DNA of 7,302 nt from Comamonadaceae bacterium (GTDB taxonomy: Bacteria > Pseudomonadota > Gammaproteobacteria > Burkholderiales > Burkholderiaceae_C). The translations under genes were made by a program, and so were the position numbers. Shown in pieces: positions 3,269 to 7,302 of the stretch. The notes under the pieces were generated by a model. The model did not search any database. It was not told the DNA's origin and saw only the letters and a program-made list of their open reading frames with translations. How positions within the stretch are numbered: position 1 is the first letter of the stretch; each line of letters begins with the position of its first letter. The stretch spans positions 1-7,302 of the forward strand of contig CANIRI010000118.1 in the NCBI GenBank assembly GCA_947469815.1, given 5' to 3'.

Positions 3269-4480
3269 CTACCAGCTCCACAGGGTGCCGTCGTGCTGCA
3301 AGCGGTTGACGGGCAAGTAGGCGCGCTGGTAAGGGTACTTGGCAGCCAGTTCTTCATCAATGGTCACGCCGTGTCCGGGCACTTCGCCGGGATGCATAAA
3401 GCCGCCCTCGAAGGTGTAAGCGTGGGGAAACACGGCGTCGGTCTCCTCGGTGTGGCGCATGTACTCCTGGATGCCGAAGTTCGGAACCCACAAATCAAAG
3501 TGCAGCGCAGCGCCCATGCACACGGGCGACAAGTCGGTTGCGCCGTGGCAGCCGGTGCGCACCTGGTACATCGCCGCGAAATCCGCAATCCGCCGTAAAT
3601 GGGTGATGCCCCCGGCATGGACGACGGTGGCGCGGATGTAGTCGATCAGCTGGTTTTGGATCAGGTCTTTGCAATCCCATAGCGTGTTGAACACCTCGCC
3701 CACCGCCAGCGGCGTGGTGGTGTGCTGGCGGATCAAGCGGAATGACTCCTGGTTTTCTGCGGGTGTGGCGTCTTCCAGCCAGAACAGGCGGTGGGGCTCC
3801 AGGTCTTTGCCCAGGCGCGCGGCCTCGATGGGCGTGAGTCGGTGGTGCACATCGTGCAGCAGGTGCAGCTCCGGGCCGGCGGCGGCGCGGGCTTTCTCAA
3901 ACAGCTCGGGCGTATGGCGCAGGTATTTTTCGGTGGACCAATCGTGTTCGCTGGGCAGGTCCGCATCCGCTGGCTCGTAAAACATGGCGCCACGGCCCAC
4001 GCCGTAGACCTTGTCCAAGCCCGGCACACCGCTTTGCGCGCGCACCGCCAGGTAGCCCATGGCCTGGTAGCGCAGCACTTCGTCCACCGTGTGCGCAATG
4101 TCCCGCCCGTTCGCATGGCCGTAGACCATGACCCCCGTTCGGCTCTTGCCGCCGAGCAACTGGTACAGCGGCATACCGGCCGCCTTCGCCTTGATGTCCC
4201 ATAGGGCGGTGTCCACCGCCGCGATTGCACTCATGGTGACCGGCCCGCGCCGCCAATAGGCGCCCTTGTAGAGGTACTGCCAGATGTCTTCGATTTGCCC
4301 GGCATCCCGGCCGATCAGACAGGGGATCAGGTGGTCATTGAGGTAGCTGACCACCGCCAGCTCGCGCCCGTTCAAGGTGGCGTCCCCAATGCCGCTCAGA
4401 CCCGCATCGGTTTCGATTTTCAGGGTCACGAAGTTGCGTCCGGGACAGCACACAATAACCTTGGCAGCTGTGATTTTCAT
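3269..4480 (-). CDS. manD: D-mannonate dehydratase (enolase superfamily, ManD type)
   Basis: The 403-residue cytoplasmic enzyme is predicted to dehydrate D-mannonate to 2-keto-3-deoxy-D-gluconate (EC 4.2.1.8) using Mg2+, as in hexuronate breakdown. An N-terminal capping domain (about 1-110) precedes the (beta/alpha)8 barrel. Residues recalled for characterised ManD all occur at matching numbers: the R147/Y159 base pair, metal ligands D210, E236 and E262, plus H212, H312 and E339. A314 sits where, from memory, efficient ManD enzymes carry Ala and weak or gluconate-active relatives carry Pro. Length equals the family norm (402-404). Start ATG 4478-4480 gives the conserved [10 protein letters not shown] and has a GAAAGG Shine-Dalgarno; a longer reading from 4615 has no family support. 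No uxuB, kdgK, kdgA, transporter or regulator gene is next to it. Older annotations of this family may read RspA or mandelate racemase-like. Confidence 0.93.
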
Positions 4481-4485
4481 GGTGG

Positions 4486-4491
4486 CCTTTC
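4486..4491 (-). promoter_or_regulatory. Shine-Dalgarno of manD
   Basis: GAAAGG on the minus strand lies 5 bases before ATG 4480. It decides the start in favour of [10 protein letters not shown] rather than the 45-residue longer open frame. Confidence 0.6.
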
Positions 4492-4535
4492 GCTCTGAAT
4501 TCAATGTACCCGATTCGGCCCACCGGTTTGCGGCT

Positions 4536-4554
4536 ATGCACTGATACGGTGCAT
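4536..4554. promoter_or_regulatory. NtrC-like operator/enhancer dyad
   Basis: ATGCAC (4536-4541) and GTGCAT (4549-4554) are perfect inverted arms with a 7-base spacer. The core TGCAC-N7-GTGCA matches the enterobacterial NtrC consensus as I know it (TGCAC-YNNNNNR-GTGCA), including T at the first and G at the last spacer position. It lies 6 bases before the sigma-54 element at 4561 and is centred near -42 from the predicted start. The same dyad lies 56 bases from the manD start on the other strand, so an effect on manD is also possible. Assignment to NtrC is inferred from the motif plus the adjacent sigma-54 element. Confidence 0.62.
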
Positions 4555-4560
4555 TTTGAC

Positions 4561-4576
4561 TGGCCCGCATATTGCA
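4561..4576 (+). promoter_or_regulatory. Sigma-54 (RpoN) -24/-12 promoter
   Basis: TGGCCCG-CATA-TTGCA matches the RpoN consensus TGGCACG-N4-TTGCW with one mismatch. The invariant GG (4562-4563) and GC (4574-4575) have exactly 10 bases between them. Transcription would start near 4587, giving a leader of about 43 bases to the GTG at 4630. It points toward the ATP-grasp operon. Its neighbour is an NtrC-like dyad, as expected for a promoter that needs an enhancer-binding protein. Confidence 0.72.
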
Positions 4577-4590
4577 GAACAGCCGGATAA

Positions 4591-4607
4591 CCAGCCGCCC
4601 CGGCTGG
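4591..4607 (+). promoter_or_regulatory. 5'-leader GC hairpin of the ATP-grasp operon
   Basis: CCAGCCG and CGGCTGG pair perfectly around a CCC loop, a seven-pair GC-rich stem. It would sit about 5 bases from the predicted 5' end of the sigma-54 transcript and end 22 bases before the GTG start. No T-run follows, so it is probably not a terminator. A role in mRNA stability or translation control is inference. Confidence 0.5.
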
Positions 4608-4629
4608 CGCAACACGGGTCAACACCATC

Positions 4630-6051
4630 GTGACGGTTGGAATCTTCAACGAAATGGTCTCTGCAGGCGGCGAGCCCCGTCCGCATTACGCGGCGCTCGA
4701 CGAATGGCTCAAGAGCATCAGCAGCGAGACGGTGAAGGCCAAACGCAACGAGGCCGACCTGATTTTTCGGCGCACCGGCATCACCTTTTCTTTGGGCGGC
4801 GAGGACGGCGGCACCGAGCGGCTGATTCCCTCGGACTTGGTGCCCCGCATCATCGACAGTGCGGAATGGGCTTTTCTGGAACGCGGCCTGGTGCAGCGCG
4901 TCAAAGCCATCAACATGTTTTTGCACGATGTGTACCACGGCCAACACATTTTGAAGTCCGGCCTGGTGCCAGCCGACCAGGTCCTTGCCAACGCCCAGCT
5001 CATGCCCTTGATGATGGGTCTGGATCTGCCGCACCAAACCTATGCGCACATCACCGGCGTGGACATCATCCGCCACGCCGACGGTGACTTTTATGTGCTG
5101 GAAGACAACCTGCGCGTACCGTCCGGTGTGTCGTACATGCTGAGCAACCGCCATTTGATGATGCGGCTCTTCCCCGACCTGTTCTACCGCTACGCAGTGC
5201 GACCGGTGGAGCATTACCCCGCCCTGCTGCTGCAAACCCTGCGCAGCGCCACCCTGGTCGAGCAGCCCACCATCGTGCTGCTGACGCCCGGGCGCTTCAA
5301 CAGCGCCTATTTCGAGCACGCATTTTTGGCCAAACAAATGGGTATTGAGTTGGTGGAGGGCTCGGATTTGTTTGTGCGCGGCGACCTGGTCTATATGCAG
5401 ACCACCGAAGGTCCGCAGCGCGTAGACGTGATCTACCGCCGTATCGACGACGCCTACATGGACCCCCTTGCATTTGCCCCGGACTCCATGATCGGCGTGC
5501 CCGGACTGGCGGCGGTCTACCGCATGGGCAATGTGGTGATTGCCAACGCGCTGGGCACCGGCGTGGCCGACGACAAATCGATTTACCCCTACGTCCCCGA
5601 AATGGTGCAGTTTTACCTGGGCGAGGAGCCGCTGCTCAAAAACGTGCAGACCTGGCAATGCCGCAAACCGGCCGAACTCAGCTACGTGCTGGCGAATCTG
5701 GGAGAACTGGTGGTCAAGGAGGTTCATGGCGCGGGCGGCTACGGCATGCTGGTGGGCCCGGCGTCCACCAAGGCCGAAATTGCCGATTTCGCCGAGCGCG
5801 TGCGGGCGCGGCCCGATAACTACATCGCCCAACCCACGCTCAGCCTCTCGGCCTGCCCGACCTTTGTCGAGCAAGGCCTGGCTCCGCGCCACATCGACCT
5901 GAGGCCCTTTGTGCTATCGGGCAAAACGACCACCATCGTTCCGGGCGGCTTGACACGGGTGGCGCTGCGCGAAGGTTCGCTGGTGGTGAACTCCTCACAA
6001 GGCGGAGGCACCAAAGACACCTGGGTGCTCGAAGCGCCAGAGGCCGCCTGA
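4630..6051 (+). CDS. Circularly permuted type 2 ATP-grasp protein
   Basis: This 473-residue soluble protein belongs to the DUF404/DUF407-type circularly permuted ATP-grasp family. Such enzymes are predicted to activate a carboxylate with ATP and join it to an amine; the real substrate is unknown. The metal-binding motif E158-D159-N160-L161-R-V-P-S-G comes before the ATP-binding lysine and glycine-rich loop (K363-E-V-H-G-A-G-G-Y-G372). That is the reverse of the normal ATP-grasp order and the mark of the permutation. Also conserved are HIDLRPFVL (D423, R425) and NSSQGGGTKDTWVLE (N454-K462). Start is GTG 4630: an in-frame TAA at 4588 leaves no better codon, and the conserved FNEM/RPHY region follows at once. 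There is no strong Shine-Dalgarno. The leader carries sigma-54 and NtrC-like sites. Its TGA shares a base with the next ATG (TGATG), so the genes are translationally coupled. Confidence 0.93.
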   Translation: MTVGIFNEMVSAGGEPRPHYAALDEWLKSISSETVKAKRNEADLIFRRTGITFSLGGEDGGTERLIPSDLVPRIIDSAEWAFLERGLVQRVKAINMFLHDVYHGQHILKSGLVPADQVLANAQLMPLMMGLDLPHQTYAHITGVDIIRHADGDFYVLEDNLRVPSGVSYMLSNRHLMMRLFPDLFYRYAVRPVEHYPALLLQTLRSATLVEQPTIVLLTPGRFNSAYFEHAFLAKQMGIELVEGSDLFVRGDLVYMQTTEGPQRVDVIYRRIDDAYMDPLAFAPDSMIGVPGLAAVYRMGNVVIANALGTGVADDKSIYPYVPEMVQFYLGEEPLLKNVQTWQCRKPAELSYVLANLGELVVKEVHGAGGYGMLVGPASTKAEIADFAERVRARPDNYIAQPTLSLSACPTFVEQGLAPRHIDLRPFVLSGKTTTIVPGGLTRVALREGSLVVNSSQGGGTKDTWVLEAPEAA

Positions 6052-7001
6052 TGCTGTCGCGCGTTGCCGCCCAGCTGTATTGGATGTCGCGCTACCTGGA
6101 GCGCGCCGAAAACATGGCCCGTATCTTGGATGTGGGCCAGTCGCTGGCCTTGCTGTCCTCGCAAAACGGCCCGCGCGAGGCAGCGGAAGCTGCGCTGGAG
6201 CCGCTGGTAATCACCGACACAGTGGCAGCCTTTCAAGCTACCGGCCGGGCCACCCGCGCCGACCAGGTAGCGCAGTTTTTGGCCTGGGACGAGAGCCACC
6301 CCTCCTCCATCGTCAACTGCATCAAGACCAGCCGGGAAAACGCCCGCGCGGTGCGCGGCGCCATGACTGCCGAGATGTGGGAATGCATCAACGACACCTG
6401 GATGGGCCTGATGCAGCGGCAAAACGCCTCACGCAGCCGCAAACCAGCCGCAGACACGGCATTTTTTGAATGGGTCAAAGAGCGCTCGCACCTGTTTCGC
6501 GGTGTCACCTTTGCCACCATCCAGCGCGACCAGCCCTACCACTTCATCCGTCTGGGCACGCACATTGAGCGCGCCGACAACACGGCGCGCATCCTGTCGG
6601 TCAAAACCCGGGTGCAACGCGAAGGTGGCACCGATCTGGTGGACGACTACTACCGCTTGGGCGCAGTGCTGCGTTCGGTGAGCGCGCTGGAGGCCTACCG
6701 CGACACCTACCGCGACGCGATCAACCCGGACCGGGTCGCCGAGCTGCTGATCTTCAACCCGGGGTTCCCGCGCTCGCTCTTGTTTTGCACCGATATCTCA
6801 CGCCAGATCCTGGACCGCTTGCCGCAGCAGTCAGGGCGCATGGCGCGCCGCCATGCGGCAGAGTTGCTGGCCAAACTGCAGTTCGGCAACCTGGAAGAGG
6901 TCTACGCCAGCGGCTTAGAGACCTACCTGGAAACGTTTGTGAAAGACACCATCGCCCTGGCCGATGCGGTGCACACCGACTACCTGGAAAACCTGGCATG
7001 A
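6051..7001 (+). CDS. Alpha-E domain protein (DUF403)
   Basis: The 316-residue, mostly helical protein matches the alpha-E family that almost always accompanies the circularly permuted ATP-grasp protein. Its activity is unknown; it has been proposed to be a partner or catalytic component in peptide/amide bond formation. No signal peptide or membrane segment is seen. MLSRVAAQLYWMSRYLERAENMAR is the classic family start. The signature LERAENMARIL (16-26) returns as IERADNTARIL (172-182), showing an internal duplication with conserved E, R, A, N, A and R. Other family blocks are FLAWDESHPSSI, ENARAVRGAMTAEMWECIND and FNPGFPRSLLF. Length is normal (about 310-320). The start overlaps the upstream stop by one base and its own TGA overlaps the next ATG by four bases (ATGA), indicating a coupled operon. 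Confidence 0.92.
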   Translation: MLSRVAAQLYWMSRYLERAENMARILDVGQSLALLSSQNGPREAAEAALEPLVITDTVAAFQATGRATRADQVAQFLAWDESHPSSIVNCIKTSRENARAVRGAMTAEMWECINDTWMGLMQRQNASRSRKPAADTAFFEWVKERSHLFRGVTFATIQRDQPYHFIRLGTHIERADNTARILSVKTRVQREGGTDLVDDYYRLGAVLRSVSALEAYRDTYRDAINPDRVAELLIFNPGFPRSLLFCTDISRQILDRLPQQSGRMARRHAAELLAKLQFGNLEEVYASGLETYLETFVKDTIALADAVHTDYLENLA

Positions 7002-7302
7002 GCATCCGGGTCCGCCACGAAACCAGCTACCACTACGAGCAGCCGGTGCGCCGCAGCGTGCAAACCCTGCGCATCAGCCCGCCGAACAACGCCCGCCAAA
7101 CGGTCCTCCACTGGAAGCTGGATCTACCGGCCCCGGCGCGTGCGTGGGCCGATGGCTTTGGCAACTTGTGCCACACGCTGGTGCTGGACCAGCCACACGA
7201 CAGCATCCTGATTTGCGCACAAGGCGTGGTCGATGTACGCGACGGAGACATCGGCGAAGCCGCCGGACCGATGCCGCTGGAGGTTTTTCTACGCCCCACC
7301 GC
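6998..7302 (+). CDS. Transglutaminase-like protein, N-terminal part (partial)
   Basis: An open frame begins at ATG 6998 inside the alpha-E stop (ATGA) and runs off the right edge, about 101 residues. It starts MSIRVRHETSYHYEQPVRRS, followed by QTLRISPP, a VLHWKLDLPAPA strand and WADGFGNLCHTLVLDQPH. This is the N-terminal beta-rich domain (Bact_transglu_N) of transglutaminase/protease-like proteins. The Cys-His-Asp catalytic domain lies outside the window and cannot be checked. Bacterial members more often act as peptide or isopeptide hydrolases than as cross-linkers. In this gene set it is thought to undo or trim the product of the ATP-grasp partner. The overlap with alpha-E indicates translation from the same message. 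Confidence 0.88.
   Translation, partial: MSIRVRHETSYHYEQPVRRSVQTLRISPPNNARQTVLHWKLDLPAPARAWADGFGNLCHTLVLDQPHDSILICAQGVVDVRDGDIGEAAGPMPLEVFLRPT

Follow-up and report, generated by a model that had tools for sequence, protein, structure and literature searches.

The Anbu operons of Pseudomonas putida (PP_2688-PP_2685) and Yersinia bercovieri comprise genes for an ATP-grasp protein, an Alpha-E protein, a transglutaminase-like protein and Anbu, and the first three of these genes are present in the operon described here, the set being complete in its nearest relative. The P. putida operon is reported to respond to nitrogen (PMC8050072, PMC7801951, PMC5666114). PP_2685 and PP_2688 changed by +4.4 and +4.0 log2, respectively, on nitrate versus ammonium, and their promoters are regarded as nitrogen-sensor candidates (PMC8050072). 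Under nitrogen limitation, PP_2686-2688 were induced 11- to 15-fold in the wild type, and loss of rpoN left an induction of 14- to 20-fold; PP_2685 (Anbu) changed only 1.1-fold in the wild type (PMC7801951). The induction of PP_2686-2688 in the rpoN mutant speaks against strict sigma54 dependence in P. putida, although urtABCD, which are named as NtrB/NtrC targets in the same table, behaved like PP_2686-2688. The cluster I35_5080-5083 of B. cenocepacia H111 likewise carries DUF404/DUF407 (ATP-grasp), DUF403 (Alpha-E) and transglutaminase-domain genes, is expressed at 6- to 9-fold lower levels in an ntrC mutant and belongs to the common sigma54 and NtrC targets; it differs in encoding a large second transglutaminase-domain protein, and Anbu goes unnamed in the available portion of that report (PMC5491218). 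With respect to RpoN dependence, the reports on relatives conflict (PMC5491218 in favor, PMC7801951 against). The preliminary description of the present locus had referred to reports linking related clusters to nitrogen limitation, and such reports do exist (PMC5491218, PMC8050072, PMC7801951).

A link between Anbu-operon proteins and nitrogen is repeated in PMC5666114, yet constitutive, moderate amounts of these proteins are also described there. A sigma54-regulon survey covering alpha-, beta-, and gammaproteobacteria includes the proteasome-type protease COG3484 among its predicted targets in these three classes (PMC12316311), and in marine metagenomes an association with domains of urea metabolism is described for DUF403, DUF404, DUF407 and the N-domain of transglutaminase (PMC3597751). 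The operon gene names find no mention in the available main text of PMC4617892 (Mycobacterium smegmatis) or PMC8443478 (P. stutzeri), and the corresponding text of PMC10274813, on Caulobacter NtrC, names the transglutaminase homologue hvyA and not the Anbu operon. At the biochemical level, release of phosphate from ATP is reported for the Y. bercovieri ATP-grasp protein, and the same source describes the Anbu proteins tested as being without peptidase activity (PMC6376114).

Gene content of the operon

The window, i.e., the whole stretch of DNA that was analyzed, is a contig of 7,302 bases (C118) from a genome bin of 2.31 Mb, which is distributed over 317 contigs and is 75% complete. Its features are listed in Table 1. 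The divergent gap between the ATG of manD (4480, minus strand) and the GTG of the ATP-grasp gene (4630) is 149 bases long (4481-4629). The ATP-grasp protein is predicted to be of the amidoligase type, based on its family, and its stop codon is overlapped by one base by the start of the Alpha-E gene, whose own stop is overlapped by the start of the transglutaminase-like gene.

Table 1. Features of the operon and its leader in the window
Feature	Position	Strand	Details
manD, D-mannonate dehydratase-like	3269..4480	-	NF043051, 746.5 bits (cut-off 550); divergent, bounds the leader, outside the operon
NtrC-consensus dyad, TGCACTGATACGGTGCA	4537..4553	+	exact to TGCACY-N5-RGTGCA; centre -42
sigma54 -24/-12 element TGGCCCG-N4-TTGCA, TGGCCCGCATATTGCA	4561..4576	+	11/12 to the sigma54 consensus used
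Predicted transcription start	4587	+	12 bases past the -12 C (C4575); from geometry
5'-UTR inverted repeat CCAGCC-GCCCC-GGCTGG, predicted hairpin	4591..4607	+	fold
Circularly permuted ATP-grasp protein	4630..6051	+	473 aa, GTG start; PF14403, E 1.3e-163; PF04174, E 6e-150
Alpha-E protein	6051..7001	+	316 aa; PF04168, E 2.7e-90
Transglutaminase-like protein, N-terminal part	6998..7302	+	PF08379, E 4.5e-22; gene cut by the contig end

The order of genes that is typical of Anbu operons was followed in the window through ATP-grasp, Alpha-E and transglutaminase up to the contig end and was found complete in the nearest relative, locus L011, which shares 99% identity with the window in the ATP-grasp protein. 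In L011, the transglutaminase gene (PF08379, PF01841) is succeeded by one whose product, 243 residues long and containing a Proteasome domain (PF00227), is read, on account of its place and family, as the putative proteasome-like subunit Anbu; the window operon is, therefore, identified with the known Anbu operon, of which the preliminary description had missed Anbu as a part. Another contig of the same bin (C279; L164, positions 1 to 2600) encodes an Anbu protein 97% identical to that of L011, located behind a second transglutaminase copy. Because the start of this copy matches the window end closely and not identically, C279 is considered either a strain variant, indicative of a strain mixture, or a mis-binned piece, and it is thus by extrapolation that the window's own operon is said to end, probably, in Anbu.

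Across the best 80 of 594 ATP-grasp stretches, Alpha-E was detected by tblastn alongside the ATP-grasp gene in all 80, transglutaminase in 71 and Anbu in 56, the last figure including 54 of the 74 loci with at least 3.9 kb of downstream sequence. Where all three were present, the order Alpha-E, transglutaminase, Anbu was maintained on the operon strand in 52 of 53 of these best loci. The encoded enzymes would act through amide-bond chemistry, either making or modifying peptides or proteins, and would perhaps recycle them; the preliminary description had suggested that the product may be tied to nitrogen storage, peptide turnover or protein modification. As a separate observation, many genomes among the matches listed for the genus pair an ATP-grasp protein of 64 to 67% identity with a second one of approximately 31 to 37% identity, whose frame mostly spans 700 to 1000 codons, a combination that is read as a second operon type; all 14 distinct leaders examined of the first gene of this type reached 10/12 or more for the sigma54 box.

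The sigma54 element and the NtrC-type dyad

The element TGGCCCGCATATTGCA, which the preliminary description had assigned to sigma54 on the basis of its GG-N10-GC spacing, is exact in this respect and constitutes the sole match without mismatch to TGGCNCG-N4-TTGC in the window, where matches with two mismatches are not enriched (9 found versus 19.2 expected). Its GG and GC are placed at the exact -24/-12 spacing, and both stay invariant when the six closest leaders are aligned. Across the 2.31-Mb bin, in which an rpoN gene is present, exact TGGCNCG-N4-TTGCW occurs 12 times (7 forward, 5 reverse), the control yielding 0 and 1. In sigma54 promoters, +1 lies 12 bases after the -12 C; with C4575 as -12, the predicted start coincides with that proposed in the preliminary description.

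The dyad TGCACTGATACGGTGCA, located just upstream of the sigma54 element, is the perfect dyad that had been claimed and conforms exactly to TGCACY-N5-RGTGCA, which we take to be the NtrC consensus. Within the window alone, finding a dyad that deviates at no more than one position carries no significance, since 88 of 200 shuffles have one. In the bin, by comparison, only three exact dyads were found (reversed-pattern control, 0), with 21 dyads of at most one mismatch versus 2 for the reversed control. The three exact dyads precede glnK-amtB (L001), glnA (L003) and the window operon; glnK was identified by a P-II match (PF00543), AmtB by eye and glnA by PF00120. Downstream of the dyad and in gene direction, sigma54 boxes of 11/12 and 9/12 accompany the glnK-amtB and glnA sites, respectively. 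That both elements would rarely coincide by chance in such a gap, as had been argued, is borne out by rough arithmetic from bin-wide counts, according to which a dyad and a correctly directed sigma54 box are expected approximately 1e-7 times in one given 149-base gap.

The seven genomes of the closest clade together contain 19 exact dyads (reversed control, 0), of which 3 precede this operon, 6 glnK, 4 glnA and 1 an ABC-permease-like gene, the remaining 5 lying inside open frames. These five represent one conserved place, at position 1501 of the respective loci, within a frame of approximately 490 codons in L190-L193 and within shorter frames in L181, and no sigma54 box of 9/12 was found within 300 bases of them, save one of 9/12 in L191; as NtrC targets they were set aside as chance occurrences. 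Elsewhere (L010, positions 1501 to 1583; G000:C116), an NtrC dyad with one mismatch is followed by a 12/12 sigma54 box, their starts being 67 bases apart, and the gene behind them, whose product by eye resembles a nitrate-transporter binding protein, is a possible further candidate NtrC target.

In place of NtrC control of the operon, the dyad could in principle serve the divergent manD gene, or a regulator other than NtrC, whether a sigma54 activator or not. The NtrC model exceeded its curated cut-off in nine of the ten clade genomes that were searched and stayed below it in the 75%-complete bin of the window, whose glnA contig ends inside glnA. In that bin, four proteins matched the sigma54-activator domain, two of them strongly and two weakly, and the NtrC cut-off was exceeded by none; this domain model also finds matches in all 14 control genomes, and for the two strong proteins no named model among those shown was matched over its cut-off. 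Furthermore, 56 bases separate the manD start from the dyad. Against this explanation stand the occurrence of the same exact dyad before glnA and glnK, its retention in four leaders in which lysS takes the place of manD, and an offset between the dyad and the operon's sigma54 box that is identical in six leaders. It is regarded as highly improbable.

The six closest leaders

The leaders most similar to that of the window (L011, L106, L109, L110 and L111) were aligned with it. In the dyad, 7 of 10 half-site columns were invariant and 0 of 7 core columns, and the stretch separating it from the sigma54 box had 1 of 7. Within the box, invariance extended to 8 of 12 columns of the -24/-12 bases and 3 of 4 of the N4 spacer. 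The upstream part had 0 invariant columns of 47, and the 5' UTR had 23 of 43. Retention of the half-sites while the 7-base core varies is as would be expected of a site bound by a dimer. In each of the six leaders, a dyad of at least 10/12 was located at the identical offset to the sigma54 box.

In L011, L106, L109 and L110, it is lysS, and not manD, that is found directly in front of the operon, as established at the locus itself for L011 and by likeness to the lysS end of the window for the other three, and both elements are kept. Since the elements persist with either lysS or manD in front, they are considered to belong to the operon and not to manD. In the window, a manD-like gene separates lysS from the operon; the same holds, judging by sequence likeness, for L111, and in L011 the gene is absent from this position. 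Arrival or loss of manD has altered the leader in its upstream portion.

The predicted 5' UTR contains an inverted repeat, and a 49-nt stretch containing this repeat is predicted to fold at -17.3 kcal/mol with a z-score of -1.95 (L011, -2.27). A similar inverted repeat, with changed bases, was apparent in the other aligned leaders.

Conservation across orthologous leaders

Leaders were collected from the best 80 of 594 stretches, 27 of 30 genus-search loci, 29 further new loci and the window, amounting to 137, from which 10 identical ones were subtracted to give 127 differing leaders. The loci were the best scoring of each search and had been picked by protein likeness, not by promoter; left out were L105, which is identical with the window, L108, whose leader comprises 72 bases, and L117, a partial match. 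In 103 of the 127 leaders, a GG-N10-GC box scoring 10/12 or better was located no farther than 250 bases from the start, compared to a mean of 2.8 and a maximum of 7 in 100 Markov runs and to 1 on the reverse strand; at 9/12, the count rose to 122, as opposed to 13.5 in Markov shuffles and 10 on the reverse strand. Lacking a 9/12 box in this range were L015 and L016 (8/12 each), L030 and L034, in which a 10/12 box is found at -306, beyond the 250-nt limit, and L071 (none). Boxes of at least 10/12 were distributed over the window clade (5 of 6), the genus of 81 to 83% identity (6 of 9), that of 67% identity (14 of 14), the family set (25 of 26) and others (53 of 72).

Dyads of at least 11/12 were encountered in 31 of the 127 leaders (Markov, 0.63; three control patterns, 0, 0 and 0) and those of at least 10/12 in 77 (Markov mean, 9.0; maximum, 14; controls, 4, 9 and 7). 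At 9/12 or better, 110 leaders qualified, yet the Markov expectation of 55 and control counts of 29, 47 and 50 imply that dyads of 9/12 say little. Within 250 nt upstream of the box, 90 dyads of at least 10/12 were counted in 122 leaders versus 6.5 in shuffles of the 127, although such shuffle controls overstate independence, because the leaders are related by descent. Recurrence of the sigma54 box in leaders of Comamonadaceae, Pseudomonas, enterobacteria, Marinobacter and Alcanivorax argues against inherited neutral sequence. The preliminary description had named as fatal to its reading that neither element be conserved in orthologous leaders; both were found far above their controls, and they are distinct in the six-leader alignment.

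An ordinary sigma70 promoter would drive the operon if the resemblance to sigma54 and NtrC sites were due to chance. The induction of PP_2686-2688 that survives in the P. putida rpoN mutant (PMC7801951) is consistent with such a promoter, but the leader conservation of both elements speaks against it, and a simple consensus scan of positions 4400 to 4700 revealed no sigma70-like site; we consider this explanation scarcely credible.

Based on the leader sequences and on reports concerning relatives, it is instead proposed, with a probability of roughly 0.86, that the leader at 4481-4629 is a nitrogen-starvation promoter at which phosphorylated NtrC and sigma54 control the ATP-grasp/Alpha-E/transglutaminase operon. 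Phosphorylated NtrC would bind the dyad and would drive sigma54-RNA polymerase into the operon from approximately position 4587. Induction by nitrogen limitation, as predicted in the preliminary description, is supported by leader conservation, by the dyad shared with glnA and glnK and by the reports on related operons. Given the conserved elements and the reports in relatives, nitrogen control is well supported, yet already known. Conservation of the promoter elements in leaders of beta- and gammaproteobacteria indicates that a widespread operon, usually including a proteasome-like particle, is tied to nitrogen limitation, and such wiring tells experimenters under which condition the substrate of the operon should be sought.

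Position of the dyad and its possible role

The dyad is centered at -42 in all six of the closest leaders (with C4575 as -12 in the window), whereas the exact dyads of the clade are centered at -126 or -127 before glnK (six genomes) and at -114 to -143 before glnA (four genomes). NtrC enhancers are usually positioned 100 to 150 bases upstream of the start (PMC5491218), a position that is usual and not defining and that the window dyad does not share. In the group of 67% identity, a dyad is located 26 bases before the box (centre -44) in 8 of 14 leaders, although these eight sites are nearly identical and thus represent few independent events. The best dyad lies 86 bases before the box in five of nine leaders of the 81 to 83% group and 68 bases before it (centre -86) in many of the Pseudomonas leaders examined, with 9 to 11 of 12 positions matched, in contrast to the exact dyad of the window at -42. 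From these group-wise offsets, it is apparent that the sigma54 box is constant while the NtrC site wanders, the window clade having it closest. In the literature searched, whose coverage of subscription journals is thin and which is, therefore, weak evidence on this point, no account of an NtrC site at -42 of an Anbu operon was encountered, nor one of the dyad geometry, -42 as opposed to -114 to -143 at glnA and glnK of the clade.

Because the dyad is unusually near the promoter, both an activating and a limiting role can be envisaged; NtrC at -42 may make contact with no need for a long loop, or it may act as a limiter. Taken by itself, activation from -42 appears reasonably probable. The limiting role would retain NtrC/sigma54 control and alter only that of the dyad, in that NtrC would cap sigma54 transcription at high levels of NtrC-phosphate, activation proceeding from another site or from solution. 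Escherichia coli glnAp2 has strong distal enhancers, and its "governor" consists of promoter-proximal NtrC sites; the window dyad covers -50 to -34, beside the expected footprint of sigma54 polymerase, which adjoins this interval. The promoter glnAp2 is likewise a sigma54 promoter under NtrC, and PMC4740811, in which a reference entitled "Governor of the glnAp2 promoter" is cited, refers to repression from sites between enhancer and promoter for both E. coli glnAp2 and Klebsiella nac. In four of the six closest leaders, a second, weaker dyad (9 or 10/12) at -81 or -83 could be the enhancer, or it could help activation; where present, however, it scores below the proximal dyad. Unlike glnAp2, the window has one recognizable dyad only, that at -42, no second dyad of at least 9/12 being detected within 260 nt in either the window or L011, so that the proximal dyad is the only recognizable enhancer there. 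A limiting function is considered rather unlikely.

Returning to NtrC/sigma54 control as such, we tentatively suggest, at somewhat less than even odds, that NtrC of this clade commands the Anbu operon from a fixed position at -42, as opposed to -114 to -143 at glnA and glnK, and that the operon would thus represent a proximal target class, either loop-free or self-limiting, with a nitrogen dose response distinct from that of ammonium assimilation. This geometry offers a clear test case for NtrC acting from beside a sigma54 promoter.

The proximal dyad-box arrangement was also searched for in 399 genomes of the family, 144 of which matched. Most of the matches listed correspond to one conserved stretch, by eye a coding sequence, and were discarded. 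Eleven other places were picked by eye, the majority of which were unconvincing as proximal promoters; the four that resemble a possible one (L226-L229) belong to a single genus. In these, at approximately position 1000, a dyad directly precedes a sigma54-like box ahead of a gene for a protein of approximately 660 residues, and open frames also cross the site; it is possibly another promoter-proximal NtrC target.
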